Positions 32,333 to 56,385 of a stretch of 64,000 nt of DNA are shown here, in pieces. How positions within the stretch are numbered: position 1 is the first letter of the stretch; each line of letters opens with the position of its first letter. This DNA comes from Symbiodinium sp. CCMP2592. Taxonomy: Eukaryota > Sar > Dinophyceae > Suessiales > Symbiodiniaceae. A program made the translations under genes and the position numbers. Below the pieces are notes generated by a model. It did no database searches and had not been told where the DNA came from. It saw only the letters and a program-made list of their open reading frames with translations. The DNA lies in contig CAJNDT010003168.1 in assembly GCA_905221615.1 (NCBI GenBank), positions 181,923-245,922 on the forward strand. The letters are read 5' to 3'.

Positions 32333-35085
32333 TCACTGGAAGGTTACTTTGCCTTCCTCTTCGCTGTCTTTAGCTTCCTCTTGGTCGTGAAGCTGTTCCT
32401 TTAGCCACTCTTCTTTCATCTTTGCTTGCGCTTTGCACTTTTCTTTTCCTTGCTTGTCCTTTGACGCTGCTTTCCAACCTGTTTCCTTTGATCCTGAATA
32501 CCAGTACCACTGTGCCTTGGCTTCGTTCCACTTCCACTGGTATTTCCTGTTCTGGAAACTGTAGACTGCAAACCAGTTTCCTTCAAACTCTCCTTTTCCT
32601 TTTCCTTTCATGAACGATGCTTCGTTCACTGGTCCTTTGGCGGACAGTTCTGGGTCGTCCTTGTCTTCTTCCTTCTGCTTGTGCTGTGTGACGTTCGGTG
32701 GCTCCTTTCCTGTTGCTTTTCCTGTTCCTTTTGCTTCTGGCTTCTCCTCTTCCTTTGCTGGTGTTGTGTCTGGCTCTGTGGGTGCCTGCGACCCGGCTGC
32801 TGATCCTCTGCTCTCAAGCTCCTGTGTAAGGCTTGCAATCCTTTCTTTATCCTCTTTGCGTTCCTTCATCATCTCCTTCATCATCTCTTCAAGCTTCTGG
32901 ATCCTGTCTCCTTCACCTGATCCTGTTGCTGTTGTTGCTGCTGCCTTCTTTTCTGCTTCCTTCTTGGCAATGTACGCTGACGCTGCCTTTTGATCTTCCT
33001 CTCTTTTCTTCCTGGCTTCCTTCTCCTTTCTTTTCTTCTCCTGCTCCTTTCTTTCCTTTTCCTCTTTGGCTGCTGCGGCTGCTGCTTTCTCCTCTGCCTC
33101 CTTTGCTGCTGCCGCTTCGGTCTCCTCCTTTTCCTTTGCTTCTCTCTCTGCTTTGGCTTTGGCTGCTGCTTCTACCTCTCGCCTTCTCTCGGCGGCTGCG
33201 GCTGCTTCCTGCCTTGCTGCTTCCTTGTCTCTCTTCTCCTGTTCTTCTGCTGCCGCTTCCAGAATCAACCTTGCTTTGGCAATCTGCTCCTCTTTTGCCT
33301 TCTTCTCCTCTTCTGCTTTTGCTTTTGCTTCTCTTTGTTCCTTTGAGATCCTGTCCTGTTCTTCCCAGTATTTGCGATCATCTTCATCTCGAGGTCGAAA
33401 TCCTGTGCTTTCTGCTCTTGCCTTTGGCTTTCCTTTTCCTTTTCCTTCCTTCTTTCCTTTTGTTCCTTTCTCGTGCTTGTACGTGTAGTCCTTGTCGACC
33501 CACTGCTTTTCTCCTGTAACTCTGTGTTGCCTGTAGATCTCGCCGTTCTCGGAGTATTCCTTCCATTCGCTGGCGTAGTCGTAGGGGTACGGAAAAAGCT
33601 TCTTCTCCTCTTCCTTTTCCTTGAGCCTTTGCTTGCTTTTGGCGTTGATCTCCGCGATCTTCTTCTTCCTTCTCTCTTCCTTTGCTTCCTCACTTTCTTC
33701 TTCCTCTGCTGCTGCTGCTGTTCCTTCATCGGGGTACTCCCCGGGATCTTCTCCTCCAACGTAGCTGTTGACGTAGGCCTCGTTCTCGTTGCCGGCTTCC
33801 TGCTCTCGTTCCTGGATGCCCTCGAAGTAGCCTCGGTCCGAATATTCCTTCCTTTCCTGGGACGTAGGTGACGTAGCTCTCGACGGTGCTGTTCCTTGTC
33901 CGTGTCCTTCACGACGTAGTTCACCTTCTAGTTCTCGGTCCTTGGCTTCTCTTTTCCTTTGTTCTTCTTCGTCTTCTTCCTCTTCTTCTTGTTCCTCTTG
34001 CTGCTGCTCGTAGAAGTCCTGCATCATCTGGTTCAGCTGTTCCTTTACGGCGTCACATGTACCTAGGACGAAGGCCATGTGTTCCTTGACTTGTTGCCGG
34101 TCTCTGTCGTTCTGTTCGGCCATTTCCTGAACCTGGTGCTTGACGTCGTAGATTTGTCCTGTCAAGGACTCCACACAACCAGCCACGTGTTCCTGGCTTT
34201 TGCGCAAACGCGCAGCTTCCTCTGTGTTCTTCCTGATCGACTCCGCGATCAAGTTCCTTTCATCAGAAGCGTTCCTTAAGGCTGTCGCCGCTTCCTTCAA
34301 AATTTCCAGTTCCTTGAAAACTTCCGCTGTGTTCTTGCTCGAACTCGCGCTTGCTTCCATGGCTGCTAAGGTTCCTTGGCTCTGTCGTTCTAAGGTTCCT
34401 TGACCTTCTGCTACCGGGCGAACTAGTTCCTGGATACCTGAGCGTTCCGCGAGTGTTCCGCAGAGTTCCTTGAGCTGCGAAGGCATCTCACAACATGTTG
34501 TTCCATGCGCTGTTCCTGCAGACGTTCCTAGCTCACATGCACTCATGTCACTGCACATGCCGTCCTGCTCACATGCACTTGCACAACAGAAAACATGTTC
34601 CTGAAAGTCTGGCTGAAACTCTTCTTCCTGAACACAACTCTCAAAACACTGTTCCTTGAAACTCTGAATCTGAAGACTGTCTGAAATACCTGAAATTCCT
34701 GCAAACAACAAAGCTGCAAAAGACAAAGTTCCTGGGCTCTTGATCATTCTTACAACTGCTTTAGCTTGTGTTTGGGCCTTGTGTTCCTTGAGCTCTTCTC
34801 TGCCTACTGGTTCATTCTCGCTGGTTTGAAAACCTAGCCAGTGCAACAACAGTCTGATACGTTTCGCTGAAAGGGGCTTGGTACCTATGTCGGCTGTGTT
34901 CTCCTTGGTTCCTACTGGGTGAACACTAATTGTTCCTTCTTTGTGGAGGTCTTGAAGAAAAAGGGTCCTGATCTGCAAATGCTTGACTCTTCCTACACCT
35001 TGCCTTGTAATAATTCCTCTAGCTGCAGAAGAATCCATGTACAAGTGTACCTTGCATTGTTTCCTGGTCAAGAATTCCACTGCTT
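32333..35085 (-). CDS. Copia polyprotein, 3' part: end of RNase H plus long coiled-coil/WW-like extension
   Basis: An open frame runs from 35,245, but its first 54 codons belong to the nested insertion; copia coding resumes at 35,085. The segment has AVEFLTRKQC and the third RNase H catalytic Asp in LYMDSSAARG, then NTADIGTKPL, the usual C-terminal RNase H signature. Beyond RNase H are about 800 extra residues: a hydrophobic segment (GTLSFAALLFAGISG), a Cys-rich stretch, long Glu/Lys/Arg/Ala coiled-coil regions, a WW-domain-like unit (two Trp 21 residues apart with GEIYRQHRVTG between, start-of-frame residues 561-582) and a Trp-rich C-terminus (YQWKWNEAKAQWYWY). The extension occupies the position of env-like ORFs in other elements; its function is unknown. 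Confidence 0.85.
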
Positions 35086-35303
35086 TATTTCCCAACGAAA
35101 CTTCCGTTTGCGCGCGTAACGGGAAACCCTTAACCGCGCTGCAGTTAAACCCTGTGCAAGCACTCTCTTTTTTTTCTCCTAGCGGACATGGGGGGTCAGT
35201 TCGGGCCCGATCTTCGGGCACTGAAACGAAGGATGCCGCTGGCATCTGTCTGAAAAGAACGACCGCTGGTCGCAGGTAAGGCGAACGACTGGTTCACCCC
35301 CCT
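35086..35303. repeat. Terminal repeat Q of the nested element, copy 1
   Basis: Matches 35,720-35,936 except for one T in a T run. Starts TATTTCCCAACGAAAC. Contains perfect hairpins with three-base loops: GCCCGA-TCT-TCGGGC (35,205-35,219), GATGCC-GCT-GGCATC (35,232-35,246) and CGACC-GCT-GGTCG (35,260-35,272). Confidence 0.9.
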
Positions 35304-35552
35304 CCTGCCCCCTACCAGGGGTGTCTCAGTACTACTGGAGACAAAGGTGAAACTTTCTTCGACCCACAGGGTCGCTGCAGTCTACTACTAGCTACTCTGC
35401 GTTGTTGACGGCCTACGGCCTATGTACAGCAAAGCACGCTGTGCTGAAGATGAGATCTCTGCTAGAGATAGAACAAGGAGCGCTGCTCCGGCAGCTCTGC
35501 TGCCACAAGCGTGGTCCCAGACCCCGCATACTATACAGGGTGTGGTGGGTGG
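35304..35552. repeat. Interior of short copy: string of small hairpins
   Basis: Successive perfect stems with three-base loops at 35,309-35,321 (loop ACC), 35,327-35,337 (ACT), 35,360-35,374 (ACA), 35,433-35,445 (GCT), 35,455-35,469 (GCT), 35,477-35,489 (GCT) and 35,490-35,504 (TCT). There is no coding potential. Confidence 0.8.
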
Positions 35553-35719
35553 GATAAAAACTTTTGGATCACAGATCCACTTCAAGCCGAAAGCTGCACG
35601 GCAAAGTTTGTCTAGTGTTCACAACACACAAGTGAAAACACTGTTTTCCTTTTACGACAAAACTTTGTCTACACTTTCGGCGGGAAATAAAACCCATTCA
35701 CGCACGCATGATGGAAGCT
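35553..35719. repeat. Terminal repeat P of the nested element, copy 1
   Basis: 167 bp identical by eye to 46,080-46,246 (offset 10,527). Ends CATGATGGAAGCT. Contains TGGATC-ACA-GATCCA at 35,575-35,589 and, in inverted orientation, a TTTATTTCCC..CGAAA motif also found at the Q terminus. Confidence 0.9.
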
Positions 35720-35936
35720 TATTTCCCAACGAAACTTCCGTTTGCGCGCGTAACGGGAAACCCTTAACCGCGCTGCAGTTAAACCCTGTGCAAGCACTCT
35801 CTTTTTTTCTCCTAGCGGACATGGGGGGTCAGTTCGGGCCCGATCTTCGGGCACTGAAACGAAGGATGCCGCTGGCATCTGTCTGAAAAGAACGACCGCT
35901 GGTCGCAGGTAAGGCGAACGACTGGTTCACCCCCCT
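35720..35936. repeat. Terminal repeat Q of the nested element, copy 2
   Basis: Second copy of Q, directly abutting P of copy 1. The joint reads GGAAGCT then TATTTCCC. Confidence 0.9.
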
Positions 35937-36019
35937 TCAAGGCACTCGAAGCCTTACTCACCCCCCATCTAGTCCGCGCCGAGTGACAAGGCCAACAGCA
36001 CTGCGTTGGGAGGAAGGAA

Positions 36020-36331
36020 TTAGCGCTCTGCGCCAAGTTTCTCAGTCTCTTCCCACCAGTCTCTGCTGGGGCCATCAGTAATGTTGCTGACGGTGGGCAC
36101 GCGGAAGAAAGCAGCCCTGCACTGCAGGGACTCCTCCACGTCGACTGCCTGCGATACTATCGCGGCGCCTGCCGCCTTCCTTGTGAAGGCTTTGTGTAGG
36201 GATGTACGCGCTGCGTCATTGTCAATCCACACGAACAGGTCACTGCCTGCTATGTGCTTCGCCCACAACTGTAGGCTCAGCAAGTATGGCAGCAGCTCGC
36301 ACTCGAAACGAGCTGTTGCTTCTGAGCTCTA
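36020..36331 (-). pseudogene. RNase H C-terminal fragment of a YR-type retroelement
   Basis: The minus frame reads SSEATARFECELLPYLLSLQ, then LFVWIDNDAARTSLHKAF and RVPTVSNITDGPSRDWW before a stop. The E, the IDND aspartate and the NITDGPSR segment match the RNase H end of elements 1 (MDNEPSRR...SANISDKVSR) and 2 (IDNVPAQ...SNVADAPSR). Upstream the frame is cut at a perfect 9-bp hairpin with loop ACT (36,330-36,350); the rest of a pol gene is absent. It identifies copy 2 as derived from a YR-type retroelement. Confidence 0.7.
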
Positions 36332-36350
36332 GCGACCCACTGGGTCGCTA
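36330..36350. repeat. Perfect 9-bp hairpin, loop ACT
   Basis: TAGCGACCC-ACT-GGGTCGCTA. One of the clearest members of the hairpin family, at the broken edge of the RNase H fragment. Confidence 0.9.
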
Positions 36351-39300
36351 CGTGGCGGCTAATCTGTAGCCCCCAGGGTGCTTGCGATTCCCTTGCCTAT
36401 GGGCACTGCTCCAAGGCCGCACTTGGGGAACAGACGTGGGGATTCACACGACGTTTATGCCTGCAAAAGAGCAAGGGAGAGGGCCCTTAGCAACCCGCAG
36501 TGGCCCTTACGGACTCGCAGCGGGCTTGTACAACAAAAAATCGGCCATTTGCAGGCAATTTAAGGACTAAAAGTACCTGCTCGCACTGTGAGACAGGTGC
36601 TGGAGAAAGGAGTCTGCACTTGTGCCTCCCAGAGCTGAGAAGCGGCGGCTGCTGCACTGCAGCAGCGGGCACGAACGGGTGATACAAGCCCCTTCGTTGC
36701 GCGTTGCGCGGCAGAGCAGCGCACTGCGTTTGATGTGCAATGTTCTTCCCCCAGTCTCGGTTGGGGCCAGCAGTGCAAGTAACATCAGGCTCTGGGGCCT
36801 TGTGCGCGCACTGCGCGGCGCTGTCTTAAAGCAACACAGAAGCTCGTCATTACTAACGCGAGCCCACAGAAAATCAGCGGGCAGGGGGCCCTTAGCAGCT
36901 CGCAGGGGCGCTTAGGGACTCGCAGCGGGTCCTTGCACCAAAAGGTTCGCCATTTACGAGCAAATTTAGGCTTGAAACCACCTGCCCGCACTGTGAGTCA
37001 GGTGCGGTAGAAAACAGTTTCCACCGGAGCCTTCCAAAGCTCAGCACGCTTCAACTGAGGCTGAGCAGATAGGGTGGAACACGAGCTGCGGTTTCTGCCA
37101 GATTGCTCCCAGCAGTTTTACAACTGCCTCACTGAGGCAATTCAGCAAGGAAAGCACCTAAAGCCTCACTGAGGTCAGTCGATGCACCGCCCTGGTAAGT
37201 AACAGATCTCCGGGGCACTGCCCTGGCGTATGGAGTGAAAGCGTTACTTTCACTGCTGTTCGCGCGCCAGTCGCGCCGCCAAAGGCGCAGTTGAACCAGT
37301 GCTGCAGACACTGCAGGGCACGGCGCGGACTCCGCGCAAGAGTCCCAAGCGGCGTGGTTGGCAGCACTGCTGTGCGCAGGGCTAGGCAGGGCACTGCAGG
37401 GCGCATGCTGCCGCCAAGAAAACCGCATGGTTGGCCACTGGGCTCTCGCTGTGGGGCCCTTAGAGACTCGCAGCGGGCCGTTAGGGACTCGCAGTTGACC
37501 CTGGGACAGGAAAGTCAGCAAAACGCGACCATTTGAAGTGCAATTTAAGCAGCACCTCGCGCGACGGCGCTACAGGGCAGGCCTACTAGGCCTGGGGCCT
37601 GGCGGCCTACAAGGTTTCAGGAGTCACTTGCGGGCGCTCCTTTTGCCAGGCAGACAGAACAAGAGGCCTACTAGGCCTGAGTCTGTTATACCAGAAAATT
37701 GTGAGCTGCAAGGCCATAGGGACACCAGTGAAGACCTCTCTGCCAGTGATGACCACGCGCCGACTGGGCAGACATAAGGAGAATCCTACTAGGTTTGGGG
37801 CCAGTTGCCTTTGAAGCTGGGAGCCTACAAGGCCACAGAAGTCTCCTGTCATCACTTTCACTGACGATTCACATCGCGATGACACAACAACAAGCCAGCC
37901 AGGCTTGGGGCTACTAGGCCTGACGTAGAATAACGTGCCTACCAGGCACGTTAACGAGAGCCGACTAGGCCTCGCGCCAGGCCTTGGCAACATCTGCCTC
38001 TGACGATCGTATGCCGACTCGGCGCGTGAGACCTACGAGGTTTAATGAGGCCGCTGGGGGGCCTAAAGGCCGCGGGCCTGCGAGGTTGCAAGAGTCTCCT
38101 CTCTGTTACCGGTGACGAGACACAACACAAGCCTGCTAGGCTAGAGGCCAGCAAGCCTGCTTGAAAACAACCTGCCTACCGGGCACACAAGCGGGAAGCC
38201 GACCCAGGCCGGCAGGCCTTGGCGACTTCTGCCCCTGACAACTGAATGCCTCGCCCCAGACATTCATCTCAACCGGAGGTAGGCGAACCGAAACCACGAC
38301 CGTCTCTGACAGTTGGTCTGGGCCGGGGGCCACTGGCCCCGCAGGACTCCCGCTGGAAGAAGCCCCTGTGAGCAACGCCTCTGCTAAGGCACCTGCTTGC
38401 GGTGCGGTCGGTACTGCCGGAAAGACCCTGGGCGAGACTTCCCGAAGCGCTTCGAAGCCGAGAGGCGGGCCTGGGGCCGACTGGGCCACTGGGGATGCCC
38501 CACGCAGACTTAGCGAAGCAGATGCAAGACCAAAGCTTACTAAGCCGGATAATTGGAGCCAGCGCGAACAGAGCCTACCAGGCGCGAAAACTGTAAACCT
38601 ACTAGGTCACAAAGACAGCTATCGGCCCTTTTCCTGCACGGACGAACACGTGCCTATCAAAGGGAAAGAAAAACAGGGCCTATTGGTGCCCACCGTAAAA
38701 CCAGCTTAAACAGAGCCTACTAGGTTTGGAAACTGTGAGCCTACAAGGTCACAGAGTCAGCTGTTTTCCGCCACTGGCGCGTGCCTACGAGGCAGATGCA
38801 GAAACAGAGGCTACTAAGCCGGATGATGTGAACCCACTGTGAAGACAGCGCGAGCAGAGCCTGCTAGGCCTGAAAACTGTGAACCTAAAAGGTCACAGAG
38901 TCAGTCGTTCTCCGCTACTGCTAGCCTCTAAGGCTAGGACCGTCAGCTATGTTGCTGTCGGCGGGGACTCGAAAGAAGGCCGCTCTGCACTGCAAAGTTT
39001 CCTCCATGTCCACTGCCTGTTGATACTATCACGGCCTTGTGTAGAGACGAGAGCGCTGCGACGTCTATCACTGACAGCTGCATGCCTCGTCCAAGACATT
39101 CCTTGTCCCAGACCTCACCTAGACCGCTCCCGGTCCAGGGTGGGCGAGCCGAAACCAAGACCGTCTCTGACGGTTGGTTTGGGCTGGGAACCACGGGCTC
39201 CGCACGACTTCCACTGGAAGAAGCCCCTGTGAGCAAGGCATCTGCTGGAGCAGCTGCTTGCGGTGTGGCCGGCACTGCTGGCACGAGCTTGGGCGAAAGC

Positions 39301-41860
39301 TCCAGGCGGGGCTGGGGCCGACTGGGCCACTGGAGCTGCCCCACGGCAAACGGAGTTTCTGTGCTGAGTGCGGCGCGTGGTCTACTAGACCGGGGGCAGG
39401 TTTCCAGCGGGCTGCCACTGGCAGGGATTTGGGCCAGGCCGTGTCTAGCGCCAAGCCGTGTTCGGCGAGAACAAGTCCGTTAATAGAAGACTGCCTGCGC
39501 CGGCCGGCCTCTGGCACGGGGCCTGGGAAGAAGCAAGAGCCAATGGCCTTGGCTTCTACACGAGAGCGCTCACGCGAGGAACGCAAGCGGTCCCACCAGA
39601 ACGAAGACCAACAGAGGCAGCGCAATGCGCACACCAGAGGAGTGCACTGGGTTCACTGCAGTTTCCGCAAAGTGGCAGGCAAGAACGCACTGCGCTCGGC
39701 CTGCTGTTTGTTCCCAGTGGGCTCTGGGGCTGTCTTACTAAGGCAATTTTTTAATTGCAGTAATTAATTAACCACCAAATTGCGGGCAGCAACGCGCTTC
39801 ACTGAGCGTGCTGTTTGTTTTCCCAGTAGCCTCTCGGGCTGCCTTACCGAGGCAAGTTTCCACCGTAGCAACCGCAAGCTGGCAGGTAGCAACGCACTGC
39901 GCTGAACTTGCTGTTTGTACACAGTATTTACTGCTGCGGCCTTCCGAAAGCAACTTTGCATTGCCGCAACCGCAAAGTGGCAGGCAGCAACGCATCTAGC
40001 CTGCTGTTTGTTCCCAGTGTTCACTGGGTCTGCCTCACTGAGGCGATATGTCACTGTAGCAGCCACGTATTGGCAGGTAGGAACGCACTGCATTCAGCCT
40101 GCTGTTTGTTCCCAGTAATCTCTGGGACCGCCTTACTAAGGCAACTGTAATGTTGTGGCTTCACAACGACAAAGCAGCAGGCAGCGAGGCACTGCGGTTG
40201 CACTGCGCACTGCGCAGTACTAGCCGGTGCCGGATGACTGCCAGGGAACGCTGAGCACAGGGTACTAACTGCCACTGGCAGGAACCACCGGTAGAAGTGG
40301 CTACTGCCCACGGCAACCAGCAGAAAGCTAGAAGCCGTGATTTAACCCGCTGGCTGCCTTGCAGCGGCAGCCTTGTCGGGCTGTGGAGGCCTTCTGCACT
40401 GCAAACTTTGCAGTTGTCTCCAAGCACGCGTTCGCTGCAGTCCGCCTTGGCGAGTGCGCCAGACGAAGTGGCGCATGTAACTGCGTACACTGACGCGTTC
40501 GCGCAGCCTGTCTGAGATTGAAGGGCCCGCACAATTGCATCTTTGAGCATGCTGTAGTGCACCTGCACCAGATTCGCTGGCTCTGTTATCCTTAAACCAA
40601 AACTGAGCTCCGCGAAAACGTGTTTTAGCGGACAAAGGCCGCTCGCAGCAGACACTGTCTGCGAGTTTGTCTGCGTGCGTACGCACTGTGTGTGCGCTCT
40701 TGCAGTGCCTGCGTGAACGTGGTCGTCCTGTGGAGAGGCCGCCCGCGGCAGACGCTGTCTGCGGAGGTGTCTGCGGCGTCCGCACTGCGTGTGCGTCTTC
40801 CTGTTTCCAAGGCACTGTGCGGGACGGGGCTATGCGAGGGCCATTGGCTGGTTTACTTGAAACGAAACCAGGCATCTTATAGAGCATCTCAGGGCCGTGT
40901 GCAACACACACAGCTCGCAGAGCTGTCTGTGTGAGTCCGCGCTGTGAGTGCGCTCCCACGTTGAAAGGAACTGGCGGGATGAGGGAGCTATGTAAAAGCC
41001 ACTGGCTCTCGTCTCTTGAAGCAAAAACTGAGATTCACGAAAGCGCGGCACGCGGACAGAGGCCGCTCGCAGCAGACACTGTCTGCGAGGCTGTCTGTGT
41101 GCATCTGAGGGCCCTTAGGGATTCGCAGCGGGCCCTTACACCAAAAAGTCGGCCATTCGCACACAATTTGAAGCCTAAAACTGCCTGCTCACACTGTGAG
41201 TCACGCGGTGAAATCGAATCTCTGCTGGTGCTGCTCAGAGCTGAGAAGCAACGGCTCCTGCGCTGCAGCCAAAGGTGCCACCTGCGTCTTGGAAGCACGC
41301 ACAGGCACACGTCACGGACTCAGAGGGCGCGTAGCAAGAGAGTGGCCCATAGTATGGGTTGCGCATCACGGACGCGCGAGGACTTGCTTGCTGGAGCCCT
41401 CCGAGTCTGCAACTGTCATTATAGACACTGTCCAGTTAGAAAACCGGGCGTAGAGAGGCCGCAGACACTGTCCGAGCGCTGGGCTGGACCGGCGGTAGCC
41501 CAGGAAGCACACAGAGGCGAGTTTGCTTACGAGCAAGCATTTGCTTGGGGCGACGCGCCTCGTCAAGGCAGGGCATGAGGCACTGCAACTGCCAAGCCTG
41601 CTTGAGATGCCTGCGGTCCCGGGCACTGCCCTGGGATGACCAATAGGCCCACTCGTGCAGCAGTGGCGCTGCCACAGGAACGCATGCTGTCTGCCCATCG
41701 ACCCGAGAGTGCTTTGTGGGCACTGCCCTTAAAAATGGCTGCATGACCACTGCATCGCTTCCCTAGCAGGTTGAGCACTGCTCGAAACTGCTGGGGTGTG
41801 CCGCAGCGGCAGCAGGGCCTGGCGCGTACTCCACACAAAGACCCATGACCGACGTCAAGC
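36351..41860. repeat. Hairpin-rich degenerate repeat field, left part
   Basis: No gene. Dense perfect hairpins with three-base loops, for example 36,648-36,666 (8 bp, ACT), 37,125-37,139 (6 bp, ACT), 37,323-37,337 (6 bp, ACT), 37,578-37,594 (7 bp, ACT), 37,931-37,953 (10 bp, ACC), 40,202-40,218 (7 bp, ACT), 40,398-40,414 (7 bp, ACT) and 40,910-40,926 (7 bp, GCA). A block around GCCTACTAGGC recurs between 37.58 and 38.95 kb. A phrase of type CTTAGGGACTCGCAGCGGG recurs near 36.5, 36.9, 37.45, 41.1 and 43.8 kb. The stretch at 38,943-39,080 is a diverged copy of the RNase H region 36,069-36,225. Confidence 0.8.
36796..37041. repeat. Diverged duplication, copy 1 (pair with 43,690-43,950)
   Basis: About 250 bp, recognisable along its whole length in 43,690-43,950 with substitutions and small indels. 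Starts GGGCCTTGTGCGCGCACTGC and ends in a CCCAGAGCTCA/CCAAAGCTCA phrase. Confidence 0.8.
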
Positions 41861-44800
41861 GTGGCCTAACTGTTTGCTAAACAGTACGGACCCCGCATGA
41901 AGGTCGCAGGCCTCAGGGCGCTGCCCTGAGGTTTAGGACGCGAAGAAACGACAGCACTGCTGCCTGCTTGTCGACAGCCCTGCTGCACAAAACTGGAAGC
42001 CCCGCAACAGCAACAGCCGGACTCCGCACCAAGATCTTGACGGGCAACAGGCACCGCCATCACTGCTTACTCAACAGTGAGCAGCATGCATGAAGATCTC
42101 AAGCCATGAGGCACGCGACCTGCACTAAACCTGGCCGTTTGTTTACTAAACGGGAAGGAACGTGCATGAGGACCGCACGCTCCGCCTGCACTCCTCGGGG
42201 CGCTGCCCTGAGGTTTGACATGCGAGGCAGCAGCGGCACTGCTGCATGCTTGGCATTAGCGCGGTCGTACGTTTACGCTGTGTTGTAGGACAGCAGTGAC
42301 CGCGGTGCTCGACGCGAACGCCGCACCAAAACAAACGATGCCACACTATTTGCGAAACGAAAAGAAACCACATCACATGCCTGTTTGCTGCTGGCCTGCA
42401 GCACGGCTGCATACGCAGGGTTGGCGCGAACTTCGCACCAAAATCCCGACCGGGACGAAGCATTGCCATAACTGTTTACCAAACCGAACGCCGCGCCAAA
42501 ACCACGGCCGGCAACATCGTTGTCACACTGCTCACGAAACAGCAGGGAGCCGCGTGAACATTCCAAGCCTCGAGGCACTGCCCTGAGGTTTAGGATAGAG
42601 GCAACGGCAGCACTGCGACCTGTTTGCCTGTAGCACTGCTACATCCACAGGGCTTTGCGCGAACTTCGCACCAAAATCCCAACCGGGACGAAGCGTCGCA
42701 GCATTGTGGACCAAACAGTAGGAAGCATGCAAAAACACTTCCTGCTTGGGCAAGGCACTGCCCTGAGGATAAGTATGCCAGACATTAGCAGCGCTGCTGC
42801 ATGCTGACACGTAACACGGCTACAAACCACGCTACACTCGAAAGTCTGAAGGCCTCAAACCTCAGGGCACTTTTTTCAGGCGTATGAGGCGAGGCATTAG
42901 CAGCACCGCTGCATGCGTGCCTGCAGCACTGCGCTGCGAACAACATGCTTTGGGGGCCGACCCTGCAACAGCAACGGTCGCAGGGCCTAGCGCGGAGTTA
43001 ACAACAAGACCCTGACGGACACCAAGCATTGACAAACTGTTTACTAAACAGCAAGAAGCAGGCGAAGGAGTGCAAGCCTCGATGCACTGCCCTGAGGTGT
43101 AGGATGCGCAGGCAAAACTGCCGCCTGCATGCCTGTAGCACTGCTACACGCACGGCTGCCTTGGGGGAAAACAAGAGCAGAGGTTCAGAGCTTATTGCGG
43201 ACTCCGCACGAAAGCCTGGACCCACACCAAGCATTGGCAGACAGTGCACTAACCACCAAGAATCAAGCGGAGGGCCCTACTCCTCGAGGCACTGCCCCGG
43301 GGTTTAGGAAGTGAGGCATCGGCAGCACTGCTGCCTGCCGAAGCTGCACTGAAGGACCTGCGGGAGCAGTCCGCGCCAAAACTTGACAGCATGGAGCATT
43401 CACAACACAGTTTACTGAAAACTAAGAAGCCTGTAGGGCGGCCTCAGGCCTCGGGACACTGCCCCCCAGCTGACATCCAGCATATTTATGACTGCGAAAA
43501 GGAGATAACTTATCTCCTAATGTTGACATCCTCACGAACATCCACGTGAGCACACTGGAGGAATCGAGGGACAAGCGGCACTGCCGAGTCCGTGCTGGCG
43601 TCACTCACGAAGCGAATGGATACCAGCGACGCCAAGCTTTGGCCAAGGTGCCAACGCAAACTTTGCATTAAGGGCTCGGGCTCTGGGGCCTTGTGCGCGC
43701 ACTGCACGGCACTGCCTTAAGGCAACACAGAAGCTCGTCATTACTAATGCGAGCCCACAGGAAAAGGCGGCCAGGGGGCCCTTAGCAACTGGCAGGGGCC
43801 CTTAGGGACACGCAGGGGCCCTTAGGGACTCGCAGCGGGTCCTCACACCAAAAAGCACACCATTTACGAGCACTTTAGGCTTGGAACTACAAAACTGCAC
43901 TGTGAGTCAGACACGGCGGAAAACAGACCCCACCGAGGCCTCCCAGAGCTCATTCAACGGCGAAATCGGAGTGATCGTCACTGACGTCCTCCGCAACGAC
44001 GCGGGTGGCACTGCTCACAACCCACAAGAGATAACTTACCTCTTCATTGCATACCTCTCGCAAGGCCTGCTCGAGGATATCTGGCAGACTGCGCTGCGAA
44101 CAAAAAGCAAAGCGACACGGCACTGCCGAAGACGCCTCGGTGCATGCCGCTGGCCAAAGGGTTACTAACCCCAGTACTGCAAGGCTACAGTGCCAGTATG
44201 GACTCCGGTTGCACGTGCGCCCTGCGTTGTCCATGGCTCTGCCGGACAGTGATGCTAGGAGGTGGCATTGCACCGGGACCGACGACGTACGTGGAGGCTG
44301 CAGCAGCCGCTGGCCCTGCGCTTTCCCACTGGCAGGCCGAGGCTGCGTTTTCCTGTGTTTACTCCCTTCGCTGAGGGTGCGAACAAAGCTACCCGTGCCA
44401 TTGTCTTTACCATCCTTGTGGTAGGCGTAGCCACTGGCCTCCATTTTCTTTCTGACGCGCCCTTCTCAGGCAAGGACGTGCTTAAGCCTCGACTGTAACT
44501 TAGCGTGTCATCTTCCTCCCCACTGGGGGGGCCAAGCACACGCGGCGCTGCTTGTGCGTGCTTGCAGCACTGCCACAGGCACAAGCCAGCAGGTGCACCC
44601 AACAAGAGAAGAATGCATGACCACCTGGAGCCTTGGGGTGCAGACGTGAGGCCTAGGATGCCAGGCATCGGCCGCACTGCTGCCTGCCTGCTCGCAGCAC
44701 TTTCTCGTGCAGAACCTGCACGCAAAACCTCCAACGGCGCTGCCGCAGAAGTGGCAATGGGCAGCCACAATACTGTTGACACAATTGTCTAACCAGCAGA
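41861..44800. repeat. Hairpin-rich degenerate repeat field, middle part
   Basis: Recurring unit with a CCTCRGGGC-(ACT/GCT)-GCCCTGAGG hairpin, a GGATGCGAGGC phrase and a GGCAGC-ACT-GCTGCC or GTAGC-ACT-GCTAC hairpin. Clear examples: 41,869-41,885 (7 bp, GCT), 41,911-41,931 (9 bp, GCT), about 42,628-42,642 and 43,133-43,147 (6 bp, ACT), 43,500-43,518 (8 bp, ACT). No coding potential recognised. Confidence 0.75.
43690..43950. repeat. Diverged duplication, copy 2 (pair with 36,796-37,041)
   Basis: See the pair. In this copy CATT-ACT-AATG is a perfect stem where the other copy has a mismatch, while the CGCGC-ACT-GCGCG stem of the other copy is broken here. Confidence 0.8.
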
Positions 44801-44814
44801 TGCCTGCAAGGCGG

Positions 44815-45850
44815 AAACCTCGGGGCACTGCCCTGGGGTTTAGGACGCGAGGCGTATGCAGTGCTGCTGCCTGCGTGCCTGCAGTACTAAACGGATGAAC
44901 CTGAAGCCTCGGGGCACTGACCTGAGGCTAAGGACGCAAGGTAGCGGCATCACTGCTGCCTGCCTCCTCGCAGCACTGCTGCATGCATAAGCTGCACTGC
45001 AGAACCACCAACAGCGCGGCTGCAGGGACACTGTCACAAAGCAGCAGATGCCGGGAAGGGGGCTTCAGACCTCGGGGCACTGCCCTGGGCGTTGGGATGC
45101 GAGGCGTAGGCAGTGCCGCTGCCTGCCGGCCTGCAGCACCAAAAACATGAACCTGGAGCCTCGGGACACTGAGGTTTATAATGCTATGCATCGGCAGCAC
45201 TGCTGCCTGGTTACTTGCAGCACTGCTGCATGCAGAAGCTGAACTGCAGAACCACCAATAGCACTGCTGCAAGGACGCTGTTTACAGCGGGGCACTGCCC
45301 TGGGGTTTAGGATGCGAGGCGTAGGCGGCGCTGCTGCCTTCCCGCCTGCAGCATGAAAACCAAAACCTGTAGCCTCGGGGCACTGACCGGAAGTTTTGAC
45401 ACTAGGCCTCGGCAGCACTGCTACCGGGTTACTCGCAGCACGGCCGCACGCAGAAGCTGCACTGCAGAACCACCCTGTTAACTGAACAGCCGATGCCTGC
45501 AAGGAGGCCACGAACCCCGAGGCACTGCCTCGAGGTTGAGGATGCGAGGCTTAGGCAGTGCTGCTGCCTGCCAGCCTGCCTGCAGAACGAAAAACATGAA
45601 CCTGAAGCCTCAGGGCACTGACCTAAGGCGTATGATACTAGGCATCGGCAGCACTGCTGCCTGGTTACGTGCAGCACTGCTGCTTGCAGAAGCCGAACTG
45701 CAGAACCACCAACAGTGCCGCTGCAGAGCGACACCGAGCAGCACAACACCGCTTACTAAACAGTGAGCAAACCGCATGAGGGTCCCAAGCTTCGGGGCAC
45801 TGCCCTGAAGTTTCGGATGAAAGGCATGGGCAGCACTGCTGCCTGCCTGC
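44815..45850. repeat. Tandem array of 213-274-bp units with two GCACTG boxes each
   Basis: The GGGGCACTGCCCTGGGGTTT-type box recurs near 44,823, 45,077, 45,290, 45,522 and 45,796. A second box (GGCACTGACC-type) follows each of the first four by about 90 bp (44,913, 45,167, 45,380, 45,612). GGCAGC-ACT-GCTGCC hairpins recur near 45,192, 45,650 and 45,830. Confidence 0.8.
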
Positions 45851-45906
45851 CAGTAGCGCTGCTACGGCACCGTCCATGGCACTACAGAAACTACCAGCCC
45901 GACAGA

Positions 45907-46071
45907 GGGGCTACTAGCCCAGCACTAATCTACCAGAAAATCACTTTGGATCAAAGGGGCTATTAGCCCACCGCTACTCTACCAGAAAATCACTTTGGAT
46001 CAAAGGGGCTACTAGCCCGCCGCTACTCTACTAGAAGATCACTTTAGATTAAAGGGACTACTAGCCCACCA
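45907..46071. repeat. 49-bp tandem repeat, 3.4 copies
   Basis: Units start at 45,907, 45,956, 46,005 and 46,054, each opening GGGGCTACTAGCCC (a GGGCT-ACT-AGCCC hairpin; loop ATT in unit 2) followed by CTACCAGAAAATCACTTTGG. Divergence is low, so this array is younger than the rest of the field. Confidence 0.9.
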
Positions 46072-46079
46072 GCACAAGA

Positions 46080-46246
46080 GATAAAAACTTTTGGATCACA
46101 GATCCACTTCAAGCCGAAAGCTGCACGGCAAAGTTTGTCTAGTGTTCACAACACACAAGTGAAAACACTGTTTTCCTTTTACGACAAAACTTTGTCTACA
46201 CTTTCGGCGGGAAATAAAACCCATTCACGCACGCATGATGGAAGCT
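46080..46246. repeat. Terminal repeat P of the nested element, copy 2
   Basis: 167 bp identical by eye to 35,553-35,719. Its outer end is the right-hand boundary of the insertion; copia coding resumes at 46,247. Confidence 0.9.
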
Positions 46247-49200
46247 CCTTCAACAATATAGAATCTGACGCTGCTGACGCTCCTGCATAGTACTCTGCTT
46301 CACCACTGCTCAAGCTAACCGACTTCTGGTTCCTAGAAAAGGAGTAAATGCACTGACCGTCTAGGCAAACAATTCCTGAAGATGTTGAGCGCCTTGTGTC
46401 CTTCTTTCCTGCCCAATCTGAATCGCTGAAGACTTCCAAAAGGTGGTGTTCCTTGGGCCTTATTCCTGTAAAGTCGTAGTTACCATTCCTGATGGATTCA
46501 TGGAGATTACTGAGTCCTCTAGGCGTTTTCCTGTACACTAAATGGTATCCTTCAGTTCTCGACATGTACTGCACTAGGTGGACTAAGTGTTTCCAAGAAC
46601 CATGTGTTGGTTCCGACATCTTGGAGGCCAAACCTCTCACGGCAAACTGCACGTCTGCTTGTTCCTGGTTCAAGGTCTGAGTGTTGTCCTGTTCCTGCGA
46701 CTCTTGGGTGCACGGAGTTGGCTTCGAGGCTTTGCTGGTAAGCTTCAGTTCTTCCTTAAGCTTCACAAGATACTTCGGGTCACTCGTGATGTGGAGCTCG
46801 TGATTGTGGTAGCTGAATTTCCTTTTAAGGAATCGGATTGTCTGGTGTGACTCTCCTATCTCAAGTTCCTGCTCTGTCAAGAAGGGGCCTTCAACCTTTA
46901 GCTCGTAGGTTTCTCCTAGCTTTCCTAGCTTGGGCTCTAGGTGCCTTGTTTTCCCTGCTGCCTGAATGTCATCTACATGCACAACAAGTATGCTGTTCCT
47001 GTCGTCACGAAACAAAGTAGGGCAAGCTTTGCTCCTATCAAAGTTCTGCTCTTTGAGGGTTCCTGCAAAATGATCACTCCATAGTAGTGCTGCATCTCGC
47101 TGTCCTGGAAGTACTCTAAGCAGTAACAAACCTTCGTTCCTACAACTGGGGTCCTGGTCGCCAAACAGATCCACATATTCCTTCGGGAATTGACATGCAC
47201 ATCGAGTCCTTTGTGGGACCTGCAAGAATGCGTCCTTGACATCAATGGAGTACAGGGAATGTTCCTGTTGTAATCCCAAGATCGGGATAAGTCTCACCAA
47301 CGATGCGCTCGTAGCTGGGCTGAACGTGTCGTTCCTTACTTCTGCTCCTTTGAACTCTCTCGCTACTAACCTAGCTCTCCGCATCCATCGGCCGTTCCTG
47401 AATCGCCAATCGAAGACGAATTTCGTCGTCAACCACTTTGTTCCTTGGTTGCTCTCTTCTTCTTCTGTCTCTCTCTCCTCTTCTCTCTCGAGTTCTTGCA
47501 AGGGTTTCCTTGCCAGTGCCTTCATCTCGGTGAGTCTGTTGATCTCTGTGAGCATTGCCTCACGATCCAGTTCCTGCAACTGGGCTTCTGCAACTTCTGG
47601 AGGTCCAGAATCTTCGCTCTTGAAGATGTCTTGTTCCTCATCGGAATCGCCAATGTCCGAATATGAATCTTCCCAGAAAATGTCCTCTGTACCTGGTTCT
47701 GCTTCAGGTAGTTCTTCATCATTGTGCTCAAATACTCTTCCTACGTTGAACGGAGGGTACTTCTTCTTCGGAGAATCAATCTTCGGGATCTTGGAACCTG
47801 TTCCTACATCGTCAAATTCCATTTTCCTAAGAGGTGCTGGTCCTCTAGCTGAAAGAAGCTCACTTGCCATTGCGCTGTCTGGGATGAGTTCTTCTTCTGA
47901 GGCTGCGTCCATTTCCTTACTGCTGCTACTAGAAGACGTTGGGTCTGAAGCTGCTTCGTCGTGTTTGTTTTGGTCGTATTCCTGCTCAAGTTCTTCTTCT
48001 GCTTTTCTCTTGCTCTGTGCCTGCTTCGCTTTGCTCTCTAGGTAGGTTGTCCTAGTAGGTCCTGACTTCCCTGCAGAGTCCCCGCCTTGGATGACAATCG
48101 GTCCTGCGATCGGTCCTGAAGGTGCGGAAGGTGCCGAGTCCTCAACCGACTGTTCCTGAGTTGCTCCATCCATGACAGGTGGCGCCTCTGCAATTGGTCC
48201 TGGAATGTTCTTCCTGGGAATGTTCCTTGTTGCCAGTGTAGTGTGCTTCACTTCCCAAGTGTGAATTCCTACGCTACTTATTCCTTTCACGTCGAAGTGT
48301 TCCAAGCAACGTTTTGCGCTACGGCTTGTCTTGATGCCGTCCATGTGCCAAGTAATGAAGAGGTTGTTGTCTGTTTTTCCTAAAAACACTCCTCTCAACC
48401 AAATAGGGTCACCTTTCCTATTGGCACGTGTTCCTGAACGATTGGTCAAAACCAAAAGTGATTCGCCAAATTCGGCGAGTTGGCCCTCATAAGGCCTTCC
48501 TGCCATGAATTCATACGGAGTCATTCCTGTGGAGGAATGGCGATGGTACCTGTTCAAGGTCCATGCCGAGTGCCTGAAAGCCCAACTGAAGATTGGATGA
48601 GTATGAGCAATATATGTTCCTGTTCTGTGTTCAAGGTGCCTAATCAGGGTTGTTCCTTGTCTCCTAATGGTCTGAATTGCTCTCTCTGCCATGCCGTTGG
48701 TTTCCTTCTGGCCACTGACTGCGTCCTGCAAGACTGTTCCTAGACCTAAAGCTGCTCGCTGCTTCTGGATGACCTGTTTCAGCTTCATCATTGTTCCTTC
48801 GTTGTCTGCCTTCAAGTTGATGGTTCCATATCCAAGCTGAGTACTCAAGTAGGTCACTCCTTCGCAAAGGTGCTCTACAAGATCCTTTCCTTTAGATGCT
48901 GTCGGGATACAGACCATGTTCCTACTCCAAGAATCAACACACACAAGACTTACTGCCGCTGGTGCCTCATCATGACTTGTTCCTGTAAAACAGAAATCCA
49001 TACAGAAAGTTGGTCTTGAAGATCTTTCCTTCTCTGGGTTCTCACGAAGGTGTGGAGACTCTTTTCCTTTGCATGCTACACACGTCGGACACCACGATGC
49101 ATAAGGTAAGTGTGTGAGATTATGCACTGCAACTTCCTCCGGCTTTGGCTGTTTGGGTACCTTCAGAGGTTCAGCTTCTAGAAACTCTTTGTACTTCTTC

Positions 49201-52200
49201 TGGCCTGAAACAAGTTCCATGTGCCTTTCTGCTTCCATAATGGATCTACTGAGCCTTCTAAGAATCTCTTGCTTAGAGCCAGCTTTTGAGACTCCTAGTT
49301 CCTTGCACAACTCTCTCAGGGCCTTGAGGCTGTTCTGCTGGTTGTACTCATGACCGTTGAATGTAAAAGACAATTCTCCTGCAAGTTCATGCCTGTGTGC
49401 TGGTGCTTGGGCCTCTGAGGTCTCTTCCTGTTCTTCTTCCTGTTCTGGAATCGTGTCCAGTTGGTGAACCTTCTGTTTTGGTCTTCTGGCCTTGGGGTTC
49501 ACTGGTTCAATGAGTTCGAATACACTACGTCCTGTCCAGGATAAACCTCCTAGTGGTTCTGGGTCTCTGTGAGGCTCATCCAAAGTCCAGAACTTGTCAT
49601 CCTCAAAGAAATCCTTATTGATCGGTTCTTCTCCATACGTGTACCTGTCTGGTTTGAGGTTTCCAATGTCTACTGGAATGTCATTGGTATCTCGAGGATT
49701 GAACAAAGTCTTCCTCAACGAGTTGTGGTACCTCGTGAGTGTAGTGCCATCCATGCTGATTGACCATGCATCCTCAGTGTACTCTTCAAACATCTTTCGA
49801 TCCTCATCTTCCTTGGGGGTGCCTATGAGGTTCAGCGGAAATTCCTTGAGCGATACTAGCGTAAGCGTGCGGTACTCCTTACTGCCATCGAAGATTGTTC
49901 CAAACGGTTCCTCAAGTTCCTCAAACATGATGCTGTGATGCAACAAATACCACTGATCATCATCCTCAATAAGCACTGCTCGATATGCGAACTTTCCTGG
50001 TGGAAACATCAAGTAAGTATCAACGTGTTCTGAGGTTCCTAGGCTGAAGTGGACTTGGTAAGGGTCTCGCCAGTTGGTCCAACCAACACGCTGTTCTTCA
50101 ATGAGTTCCTTCAAGTTCTCGCACAAGTACATAGGGATAGGTTTTGCTTCTGCTTCCCAGTTGACTGCTCTCACAAAGGCTTTTGTTGTAAGTGAGTTGT
50201 TGTTGTAGTTCACTGCGATCTTGGTTGTTCCTTCTGTTAGGAAAGTGCCTGTTGCTGTTCCATCTCTGAACTCCCAGCCTTTCTTCAACAGTTTACCTAC
50301 TGCCAAAAGAGGGTGCACAACCGATGAAATCAAGAACACTTCTTCAACCTTCACAATGTTTCCTTGAACATCCCGAAACTCAACCTCAATGATCCTTTGG
50401 TCTGAAACCTTGATCCGAGATCCTTGTGCATCTCGCAAAACTACCTTGGTAGTGTTGGGTGCCTTTCTTCCATACTTCTTCATCCACATCGGTGCCAACG
50501 AAATGTCGGCTCCTGAATCCAGCACAACCTCGATTTCTCGACTTCTCGCGTTCCTTGCTGCACGCGCAAACCTGGTGATGGTCCTTGAGGGTGCTGTTCT
50601 CTCTACTCTGTTCCTTCTAGGAGGATGGTGACATCCGTTCTCACATTCCTGCATGTTTGGGTGCCACGGTGTTTCATGACATCCATTGGGACACTCAAAG
50701 TAGTATCCACGATCCTGAGTTCCTATCGGAGTTCCTGCTAGATGCCATTGCAACCATGCATCATCACTCACCTCATCACAGTCCTGAAACTCATCATCTT
50801 CATCACCAATCCAAAACTCTTCTGTCTCACTCCTCTCTTCCTGAACTTCTTCACCAACAACCCGCAAAACTCTTCCGAAGTACTCAATCTCTATCTCTTC
50901 AGAGTTCTCACTCAGCGCGAATTCCTCCGGAAAGCTTGTGGGCTCGTCTCCCATGTGGTACATGGAGACCATCCTAATCACTGGTCTTTGGGTTCCTTGG
51001 CTTGCTTGGCTTGTTGAGGTCTTGTTGGCTGACGAAGGGGCCTGAGTAGAAGTACCTGTAGTGCTCGCTTGCTCGCTCTGGTTTTCAAGGTCAACGTTCC
51101 TGGCCTGGTAACCCATGTCACGCATCTTCTGTCTGCACTGTGCTTCGAAATGTCCATACTTATGACAGTAGTGACACACTCCTGTAGCTGCTTGGGCTTT
51201 GCCTTTACCTTTTCCTTTGTGTCTGAAGAAACCTCTTCCTCGACCTTTGCCTTTTCCTTTGTAACCTCTGAAACCTCTACCTCGGCCTTTCCAGTTGCCT
51301 CGACCTCTGCCTTTGCCAAAACCTCCGAAACCTTTACCTTTACCTTTGCCTTTGCTGTCAAAGCCGTAACCTTTTCCAAAGTCCTTTCCACCTTTCTTGC
51401 CTTTTCCTTTACCTTTGCCTTTATGGTGAACATAACCTTTGCCATAGCCTTTCTTTCCTTTGTACCATGCTTGGTTGATATCCATTGCTGCAAGACCACC
51501 ATGGTCATCACCTTTGTCGATCAAGTCTGTTGTGGTTCGGTGAGGTGTTCCTTGCTGGGCTGCTAAAGAGTTAGTCCAACGCTCGGTTGACTCATAGTTC
51601 ACAAGGTACTGACGAAGAGTATTGTACTGTGTCTTCTCATCCATGTTGAGCAACAAGTGCCTTTTCACGTCAGGTTTCATACCTTGGATAAGAGTAGATA
51701 CTTTCAAATTCTCCTGTACCTTTTCTCCAGTAGCCTTCTCGTACTTCTCGATGTGTTCCTCATATTCGAGGATATTCTCAGCAATTCCTTTGTTGTGAGC
51801 GAATTTGTAGTTGAGAATGTTGTGAAACAACTCCAACGATCTCGCACGATTCGTTGGTTGATATTCCTTGAGTAGCATACGGTAAGCTTCCATACCGTTC
51901 TCCTCAGCTACATGCTTTACAACTCGGTACGGCCTTCCTTTAGTGTATGAACAAAGAACACTGTACAGGCGTCTGCTTGTTTCCTTTGCTTCTGCAGACA
52001 TCTCAGCCATCTTCACTTGCTTATCATCTTTTAAGTTCCTTTCTGCGATGTCCATGATCTTCACCATGTTGGAATCCACTGCTCCAAGCCAGATCCGCAT
52101 CCTGTTCCTGAACTCTGTCCATCCACTCTTCTCTTCTTGCCATGTTCCTGGGGAAAATGCTTCGGGGCTTTTAATCAGCTTGTGCAACTCCACTTCTCCA

Positions 52201-53000
52201 GGCTTTCTTTGTTCCTTTACTGCTTTCTCCAGAGATGCTCCTATCTCCTCAAGTGTCGTTGCTGCATTCGTGTGGGCGTCTGCCAACGCTGTTTGCGCTG
52301 TCTTCTGCTGTTCCTGAACTGCTGTCAGGGTTTCCTGGAATGCTTGTGTAAGTCCTGCTTCTCTTTGACTTCCTGAAGCTGCTGAGTTCCTGATCTCCTC
52401 TGCTAGTGTTTGTATTCCTTGTAAGGTCTGTGCATTGATCTCGGCAAGTGCCTTCAATGCATCCTCCATTCCTTTTGCTGTTTCAAGGTTGCTGTACACT
52501 AGTGCTGCTAAAAGTAGCGACTTGCACTGTTTCCTGCACACTGCTTGTGCTCTCCTTTCTCCTCTTGTCTTCCTTTGGTGCTTTGAGCGGTTGCTTGCTC
52601 TTGCGAAAAACACACTAGAATAGTACGACAGGGTGATCCAAGTAATCAGTCCCATTGGGGTTCCTAAGAACACTGCTATGCGAATTCCTTGAAATACAAC
52701 TCTGTTGGAAATGACTTCCTGAACTATCACATGCACGACGTCGTGAAACTTCTTTCCTACAGTTGCTAGCTTTTCTACGAAACTGTGAACATGTTCCTGT
52801 ACAAATTTCCTCAGTACTTCTCGCTGTTGTTTTACTAGGTACCTAGGGGCGTAGCCTGACTCAAGGCTCTCACTCTCCTGGTTCTCGGTGTTCTGGTTGC
52901 CGTTCCTGTTCTCTTCCGTGTAGTACTCGCCGGTCACGCTAACGACGCTGTAGAGCTCGTTCATCACTTGGTTCATGCACAACAAAGCGTACGGTACCAT
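46247..53000 (-). CDS. Copia Gag-Pol polyprotein: Gag, protease, SAP, integrase, RT, start of RNase H
   Basis: The frame is open from 53,180; ATG at 53,000 lies 9 nt past the stop of the preceding ORF. Numbered from 53,180: hydrophobic segment about 162-193; helical Gag core about 330-540; KG/RG-rich 575-661; zinc knuckle CHYCHKYGHFEAQC (669-682); protease DSGAD (888-892); a SAP-like DNA-binding unit LRELCKELGVSKAGSKQEIL (1288-1307); integrase HHCC (H1353, H1357, C1364, C1367) and catalytic D1395, D1459, E1499; RT Asp1980 and VDD (2069-2071); RNase H D2253 and E2294. Copia coding stops at codon 2312; the frame then runs into insertion sequence to a stop at 46,179. The ORF shows no internal stop, so it was functional until the insertion removed the last RNase H Asp from the reading frame. 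Confidence 0.93.
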
Positions 53001-53008
53001 GACTTTTC

Positions 53009-54211: not shown

Positions 54212-54454
54212 ACATGTTATGTTCCCTGCTCCTCCCTCAAAGTCACACGCTCTCCACACTTTTTCAAGCATGCCTCGCGAAGCGTACACAGGTTTGCCAC
54301 TGCATCGAAACTTCGTAAGAGAGAGAGCTCGCCGCACTGGTGCCGAAAGGCTGTAGCAGAAAGCGGCCGCCGAGGCGGGCCGAAAGCAAGTAGCCAAACC
54401 AGGTCGTAGGCAGCGAGCTCGCAAAACAAAGCGAAGTCCCACTGTAGCAGCATC
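54212..54454 (-). repeat. Direct repeat B2-like of YR element 3
   Basis: 243 bp matching 54,510-54,750 except for a 2-bp GA difference. With the 55-bp segment between them the arrangement repeats the B1-A2-B2 plan of elements 1 and 2. Confidence 0.8.
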
Positions 54455-54509
54455 TCCGGGAGGGTGGGCGGGCCATCAAAGCTTCGTCGCAACCACAGAA
54501 CATGGGGAG

Positions 54510-54750
54510 ACATGTTATGTTCCCTGCTCCTCCCTCAAAGTCACACGCTCTCCACACTTTTTCAAGCATGCCTCGCGAAGCGTACACAGGTTTGCCACTG
54601 CATCGAAACTTCGTAAGAGAGAGCTCGCCGCACTGGTGCCGAAAGGCTGTAGCAGAAAGCGGCCGCCGAGGCGGGCCGAAAGCAAGTAGCCAAACCAGGT
54701 CGTAGGCAGCGAGCTCGCAAAACAAAGCGAAGTCCCACTGTAGCAGCATC
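54510..54750 (-). repeat. Direct repeat B1-like of YR element 3
   Basis: 241-bp partner of 54,212-54,454, about 115 bp past the stop of the recombinase ORF. Confidence 0.8.
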
Positions 54751-56148: not shown

Positions 56149-56215
56149 GCAGAGGGAATCGGGCCCGAACTCGGCAAAGGAAGGCAGGTTCCAAAGGTGG
56201 GAGCTATCAGGATTT

Positions 56216-56385
56216 TTTTCATAATCGGATTTTCAAACATATGCAAAGGGAAAAAGGACTCAAAGTCTATTTGCAAATGAATCCAATCACAAGTAACATA
56301 AGATTCCAAGTAATCCGGCATAAGATGCATCGCACTGTCCTTCATTTTGCACGGGGCGAAACACGGTCTGGCGACCGCCCCCTTC
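56216..56385 (-). repeat. Split direct repeat B2 (terminal) of YR element 2
   Basis: 170 bp identical by eye to 56,982-57,151 (offset 766). Forms the 3' end of element 2 in minus orientation. Confidence 0.85.

Follow-up and report, generated by a model that had tools for sequence, protein, structure and literature searches.

The 64,000-nucleotide stretch of Symbiodinium sp. CCMP2592 DNA considered here (contig CAJNDT010003168.1, positions 181,923 to 245,922; hereafter the window), part of a 1.1-Gb assembly, carries within a copia open reading frame (ORF) an 11-kb insertion, which is crowded with short perfect hairpins closing on loops of three bases, most often ACT. The insertion is a non-autonomous element that has been amplified; its direct repeats are split, its ends are precise, and any target duplication is at most 2 bp long. 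Its hairpins exceed chance expectation, are strand-polar, obey a loop rule, are present in the reverse transcriptase (RT) coding DNA of relatives and nearly absent from neighbouring and nested DNA, and their stems are conserved in the repeat region, with compensatory changes. The explanation that we tentatively prefer, with a confidence somewhat short of even, is that the insertion belongs to the split-direct-repeat (PAT/Ngaro/DIRS-like) retroelements as a non-autonomous member, and that the hairpins are dispersed, strand-polar recognition structures maintained by selection in its family. The slow repeat-region stems, the loop rule, the polarity and the compensation together argue for a selected recognition site composed of structure plus loop; reading by a protein, the nature of that protein and the choice between RNA and complementary DNA (cDNA) as its target are what we infer. 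Two things go beyond an initial annotation of this DNA: the genome contains at least 40 places related to the insertion, itself a retroelement with split direct repeats, and the coding DNA of its relatives bears the same hairpins.

Hairpin excess, loop rule and polarity

Counting as a hairpin any perfect stem of at least 5 bp around a loop of three bases, we found 89 in positions 35086-46246, against 14.4 +/- 3.8 (at most 24) when the region was dinucleotide-shuffled 40 times, and 60 in the remaining 52.8 kb of the window. Loop sizes 2 and 4 were near the shuffle level (20 and 17); sizes 1, 5 and 7 were raised (76, 62 and 33), which in our reading is probably for the most part a recounting of the same odd-centred palindromes. 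The loop triplets comprised ACT (39), GCT (15), TCT (4), ACA (4) and ACC (3), with 24 others. The initial annotation had described, by eye, a swarm of perfect three-base-loop hairpins, mostly with ACT, and both the count against dinucleotide shuffles and the loop tabulation bear it out, three-base loops being in excess and ACT the commonest.

The stems, as had also been claimed, are mostly different. Among the 89 hairpins there are 55 distinct inner 5-bp arms, 22 of them first seen with ACT, and the swarm therefore does not consist of copies of a single ancestral hairpin, though part of it is array copies (the inner arm GCAGC occurs 11 times). The five main loops (ACT, GCT, TCT, ACA, ACC) account for 65 hairpins with 41 distinct inner arms, which speaks against array copying as the sole source; 34 of the 41 have C or T immediately before the loop. 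RCT triplets centre a stem of five or more pairs in 54 of 528 cases inside the element as against 0 of 1925 outside (Fisher 1e-37), whereas AGY triplets do so inside the element in only 2 of 396 (versus RCT, Fisher 8e-12), and the hairpin signal is therefore strand-polar.

Anatomy, copies and insertion sites

On the window the repeats follow in the order Q-P-Q-P (Table 1), which in the sense (minus-strand) reading becomes A1 ... B1-A2 ... B2; A2 equals A1 and B2 equals B1, the element thus possessing split direct repeats. The layout A1-B1-A2-B2 is that given for PAT and Ngaro elements in an excerpt of PMC4157794. The Q-P unit was sought throughout the assembly, and of 438 candidate places 40, the window among them, were scored; a second Q, partly diverged or incomplete, lies directly behind the Q-P unit in 38. 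That a short and a long copy happen to stand in tandem can be rejected, because these 38 of 40 scored places share the layout. The same P' closes four fetched copies (C1, C1191, C2557 and C1466), and another (C3469) stops within P'. Copies with a Q-P unit 86-94% identical were fetched as diverged relatives. One copy (C3691, L057 101-746) consists of a solo Q-P unit and lacks the long part, and may be likened to the solo repeats that recombination leaves behind. Within the window element a second zone of repeated units lies at 39653-40144; three to four 49-bp tandem units with GGGCTACTAGCCC-type hairpins, at 45906-46070, adjoin the A1 repeat.

Seventeen insertion sites were examined, and both ends were readable at 13, the four with an unread end being dropped. 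No base was repeated across the insertion at ten sites, one base at one and two bases at two, and the 13 sites had no common target base. At the window site the copia flanks join as LLKE-AVEFL, and LLKEAI stands at the same place in the 7 closest of 66 relatives; no base was therefore gained or lost, and the copia frame is continuous across the site. The exact ends of the insertion, 35085-46245, differ by one base from the 35086..46246 proposed at first.

A rolling-circle element of the Helentron/Helitron2 kind was suggested by the T/T at the window site, by an asymmetric inverted repeat near both element ends (14/16 bases, by eye) and by the head-to-tail layout. Helentrons and HINEs, as portrayed in an excerpt of PMC4067079, are alike in the asymmetric near-terminal inverted repeat, the T/T and the central repeats; here, in contrast, there is no TT target preference (T|T at 2 of the 13 sites), the direct repeats are split and relatives encode RT-RNase H, and the candidate was rejected. 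Organellar DNA is argued against by the precise ends and the many copies; inverted-repeat elements are mentioned for dinoflagellate mitochondrial DNA (excerpt of PMC4558855). Rfam gave no match up to E 1 in 34500-46800, a phage search with the 635-base unit and a plasmid search with 40000-46300 gave none, and viral contigs yielded 5 pattern matches without further similarity and no RT relatives. Among the open-licence literature matches listed we found no comparable element, which may still be published elsewhere.

Hairpins in the coding DNA of relatives and in other copies

Judged by sequence similarity, diverged relatives of the 11-kb element encode a predicted RT-RNase H, homologous to an element of the window with an integrase-like ORF. 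In the relative C1225 a 739-aa (amino acid) ORF matches the window RT ORF 57730-61191 (27%, 3e-46); the C1225 ORF also matches the window ORF 57150-57758 at 7e-9, a shorter C1225 ORF matches the window ORF 61192-62499, and the C1225 ORF 2973-3626 matches a middle region (residues 362-505) of ORF 57730-61191. In a further relative, C5309, a minus-strand ORF after the Q-P unit matches RVT_1 at E 2.5e-5 with 24.5 bits, short of the curated cutoff of 29.6. Beside the related RT ORF in the window, ORF 54865-56232 matches a phage integrase family at 2.4e-4. The name RNase H is our assumption for the relatives, drawn from the C1225 match to the window ORFs and from characteristic motifs; ORF 61192-62499 we take by its position to be gag, and the ORF called methyltransferase is presumed to be so likewise by position. 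A methyltransferase domain separates DIRS from Ngaro; ORF 57730-61191 had no Pfam methyltransferase match.

Hairpins of the same type stand in this coding DNA. With synonymous shuffles as the control (300 for the C1225 RT ORF), the RT ORF of C1225 holds 11 sense-type hairpins against 0.93 +/- 0.92 and that of C5309 8 against 0.50, while control ORFs (two other RT, one recombinase-like, and copia) hold 0 or 1 each; the window RT ORF 57730-61191 has one (0.39 expected), and the two ORFs examined of another element, at 12969-20058, have none. The loops of the RT-ORF hairpins occupy all three codon phases. A codon or peptide cause is excluded because of this spread over the phases and the excess above synonymous shuffles. 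Where RT relatives were aligned at the hairpin peptides (22 of 38) some residues differ (for instance DFSEV versus PFAEV), and protein alone cannot show the presence of a hairpin. In the copia DNA, where the initial annotation had noticed no signal, sense-type hairpins are indeed absent, but two of opposite polarity occur against 0.70 expected (counted over the initial 6900 bases of the interrupted ORF).

Seven other copies hold 150 hairpins in 17,223 recognised element bases versus 7 in 80,422 bases of other DNA, which takes in the nested inserts, the density of hairpins in the neighbouring DNA of the fetched copies being roughly one hundredth of that in the element. In C5151, which is split by nested inserts, 36 lie inside the element and 3 outside, all three at most 200 bp from a recognised segment. 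Many hairpins stand at corresponding places across diverged families, and the longest stems in the copies have 11 bp. Pooling of the distinct three-base-loop hairpins with stems of at least 6 bp gave 63, with loops ACT (20), GCT (19) and TCT (9) foremost; on the sense strand the loop is AGN in 48 of them and the closing pair C-G in 42.

One 5.4-kb sequence (94.6% identical), LINE-like on inspection by eye, occurs close to the RT in two different copies, at C1225 3474-8899 (L030) and at C4981 2470-7868 (L026/L027).

Stem evolution, compensation and folding

The family test omitted C1466, the outer Q-P unit of which is more diverged; this copy was retained among the young copies, and its comparison with the window was left out of the count of changes on both sides of a stem. 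Hairpins with mapping gaps were dropped from the pair counts, as were pairs in fewer than three copies (108 of 326). Between families, stem columns of the repeat region vary in 18 of 157 cases (11.5%) against 171 of 673 others (25.4%; p 1e-4, with the window copy as caller), and two other callers gave p 0.0012 and 0.0006. The corresponding figures in coding DNA, with C1225 as caller, are 12/90 (13%) versus 305/1314 (23%; p 0.036). In young full-length copies the variation of the stems (10/754) is similar to that of other sites (163/10108), and the stems are therefore not mutationally cold.

Changes on both sides that keep the pairing were found in 20/2235 and 15/710 comparisons (35/2945 in all), against 3/1842 and 0/598 both-side changes (3/2440 in all) in an offset control, and compensation is seen in 10 of the 218 pairs represented in three or more copies. 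In the array of the long copy pairing was kept in 22 of 28 double changes. No paired double change was found in six young copies, with 14 of 795 stem columns variable. Single mismatches, in pairs represented in at least three copies, comprised 27 sense G-U, 19 sense A-C and 36 other distinct states, the wobble significance test resting on the 27/19 distinct-state set only; counted separately as plus-strand G-T and A-C, they numbered 12/13, with 43/59 in the long-copy array, 20/26 for cross-family distinct states and 2/6 in young copies. Folding energy was below that of shuffles in the element, the mean z being -1.17 on one strand and -1.11 on the other (74 folding windows) as against about 0 in 117 outside.

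Dispersed recognition structures as the preferred explanation

In the mechanism that we propose, a sense-strand site would be a short stem, almost unconstrained in sequence, that bears a mostly AGN triloop and is often closed by C-G; a putative reader, an element protein and most likely Gag or reverse transcriptase, would recognise the AGN triloop on its stem, and the many sites per molecule would collect the element's RNA, or its first-strand cDNA, within a replication complex or particle. Repeats and hairpins are kept in the amplified 11-kb copies, in which the coding sequence is reduced to remnants. The hairpins are perhaps candidate packaging signals. The nearest functional likeness, suggested by analogy and implying no claim of membership, would be to the dispersed packaging signals of RNA viruses and hepatitis B virus, which in excerpts of PMC6281560 and PMC8677749 also appear as numerous stem-loops that have a loop motif in common and stems that vary, in coding regions too; here, by contrast, the stems are perfect, the loops have three bases, there is no significant wobble preference, and any protein binding is putative.

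A bolder formulation, towards which we remain doubtful, is that of a family-wide structural code, in which dozens of hairpins with nearly free stems would have their AGN triloop kept by selection even within the RT gene and be read by the family's own protein, the amplified form being little more than repeats and reader sites. Should the hairpins be reader sites, the element would be a retrotransposon whose coding and noncoding sequence is densely set with packaging-type signals, and these could account for the spread of an 11-kb element that has no intact genes.

As regards class, the relatives may resemble the PAT/DIRS group also in ORFs that stand in presumed gag and methyltransferase positions. 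With these tyrosine-recombinase retrotransposons, as treated in an excerpt of PMC4157794, the element and its relatives share split direct repeats, RT-RNase H and the absence of target duplication; that excerpt does not mention fixed-triloop hairpins throughout the element. Further differences are the 249-bp spacer between A2 and B2 and the lack of any recombinase found in the hairpin-bearing copies.

Several observations weigh against the preferred explanation. The fetched hairpin-bearing copies, which are broken by inserts, have no match to the two recombinase-like ORFs of the window, and the C1225 RT ORF holds two hairpins of opposite polarity against 0.20 expected. In coding DNA the stem contrast is nonsignificant for two callers (7/40 vs 103/422 and 18/89 vs 315/1313; p 0.44 and 0.52). 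The copies are kin, so that pair counts are not independent, some hairpins are array duplicates, and array double changes hardly exceed the offset control (28/781 vs 14/649). The wobble preference is nonsignificant (27 vs 19, p 0.30), a 3:1 preference being disfavoured (p 0.011); in the main array plus-strand G-T is the commoner mismatch, largely owing to one pair in 9 of 15 rows; and folding energy is lowered to the same degree on either strand (p 0.68). The missing wobble bias and the equal strand energies together argue against ordinary selection for RNA structure and leave RNA or DNA as the molecule; given the former, what is read may be RNA with strict helices or else first-strand cDNA. 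The initial annotation left three causes open, of which selection for structure has the strongest support, from repeat-region stem conservation and compensation, but its RNA version lacks a clear G-U preference.

Alternative explanations

The main rival, which we judge rather unlikely, treats the hairpins as neutral, made or perfected by template switching (snap-back) of an RT or DNA polymerase, one arm being rewritten from the other; loops that readily fold in cDNA would initiate such events and thereby grow frequent. This fits the perfect pairing, the compensatory changes and the lack of significant wobble bias, and the strand polarity suits reverse transcription. Template switching can create and keep hairpins, some DNA-stable loops being enriched (excerpt of PMC8794818), and is named a possible cause of hairworm mitochondrial coding palindromes (excerpt of PMC6649704). 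Both these cases resemble ours in perfect inverted repeats, found in coding DNA too, whereas neither excerpt describes a fixed three-base loop of one sequence. A neutral process would not lead one to expect repeat-region stems that are slow in the long term yet no slower than other sites in young copies, nor the want of paired double changes in the six young copies despite their variable stem columns, and extra assumptions are needed for the loop rule (mostly NCT on the plus strand) and for two other RT ORFs without sense-type hairpins beyond chance. Template switching, which the initial annotation had proposed among its causes, is possible but by itself leaves the loop sequence unexplained; it could also supply hairpins on which selection acts. 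If it made the hairpins, the family would be an unusually clear natural record of the process, with the loop rule naming the starting motif; the loop rule yields predictions testable on short oligonucleotides under either this explanation or that of recognition structures.

An improbable variant replaces the packaging protein by a host or element DNA-binding factor, which would read hairpin cDNA or extruded double-stranded DNA at integration or second-strand synthesis. In its favour, the near-symmetric mismatch types suit DNA, and DIRS1-like elements integrate via a circular intermediate without target duplication (excerpt of PMC3266345), but the hairpins occur throughout the element and not only at repeat junctions. 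It is quite improbable that RNA secondary structure as such was selected, for transcript protection or escape from small-RNA silencing, with no loop-specific reader: the lowered folding energy and the occurrence of hairpins in both coding and noncoding parts would fit, yet z is equal on the two strands, there is no significant G-U preference, and plain stability would not require a loop rule.

Highly improbable is a filling of the element by ordinary satellite or self-mobile palindromic repeats through array duplication and insertion, for which the two zones of repeated units and the short constant loops of Volvox organelle palindromes (excerpt of PMC2670323) might speak, but against which stand the 41 distinct inner arms in five main loop types, the matching places in diverged families, the open RT frame and the roughly hundredfold rarity in neighbouring DNA. 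In the window and the fetched copies the hairpins are nearly confined to the element, often at matching family places, unlike individual insertion at unrelated places. The Volvox repeats, according to the same excerpt, are likewise dense hairpins with a short, often constant loop and variable stem length; they are repeated, apparently selfish and intergenic or intronic, whereas ours occupy matching places of one retroelement family, its RT gene included.

Features of the window

Table 1. Features of the element, of its host ORF and of other elements in the window
Feature	Position	Strand	Remark
Whole element, 11,161 bp	35085..46245	- (sense = window minus strand)	near-identical copies elsewhere in genome
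Q, outer repeat B2	35085..35303	-	plus strand starts TTATTTCCC
Spacer B2/A2, 249 bp	35304..35552	-	hairpin-dense
P, inner repeat A2	35553..35718	-	plus strand terminates GGAAGC
Q', inner repeat B1	35719..35936	-	joined directly to A2
P', outer repeat A1	46080..46245	-	
Decayed, presumed RNase H end of autonomous relative	35972..36445	-	75% aa identity to C1225 ORF; three hairpins
Hairpin TAGCGACCC[ACT]GGGTCGCTA	36330..36350	+	in presumed RNase H remnant
Hairpin GCTGCTGC[ACT]GCAGCAGC	36648..36666	+	
Hairpin, 10 bp, loop ACC	37931..37953	+	
Second short remnant, presumed RNase H	38933..39019	-	86% over 29 aa
Diverged repeated units	41906..45880	.	several hairpins in each
Hairpin, 9 bp, loop GCT	41911..41931	+	
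Hairpin, 8 bp, loop ACT	43500..43518	+	
Remnant like C1225 ORF 11765-12478	44235..44504	-	31% over 90 aa
Host copia ORF, downstream part	32333..35084	-	flanks join without base gained or lost
Host copia polyprotein ORF, upstream part	46246..53201	-	insertion cuts within RNase H region
Second element of PAT/DIRS-like group	54865-62499	-	RT ORF 57730-61191; integrase-like ORF 54865-56232
ORFs of another PAT/DIRS-like element	12969-20058	-	ORF 12969-16442 like C1225 RT ORF (22%, 3e-21)

In the element at 12969-20058 we presume, besides the RT ORF, an ORF in gag position and, by a motif, a possible recombinase ORF; the latter (18274-20058) had no Pfam or PHROG match. Among the 66 matches to the host copia ORF the best-scoring named ones come from Symbiodinium, Cladocopium and Polarella and the weaker named ones from plants, a fungus and an arachnid; about 16 residues present in the relatives P0001, P0002 and P0004 are absent in frame from the host ORF near window position 46658 on the minus strand (by eye). 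A 296-bp unit is repeated 1.8 times, with 99% matches, at window positions 54212-54750.

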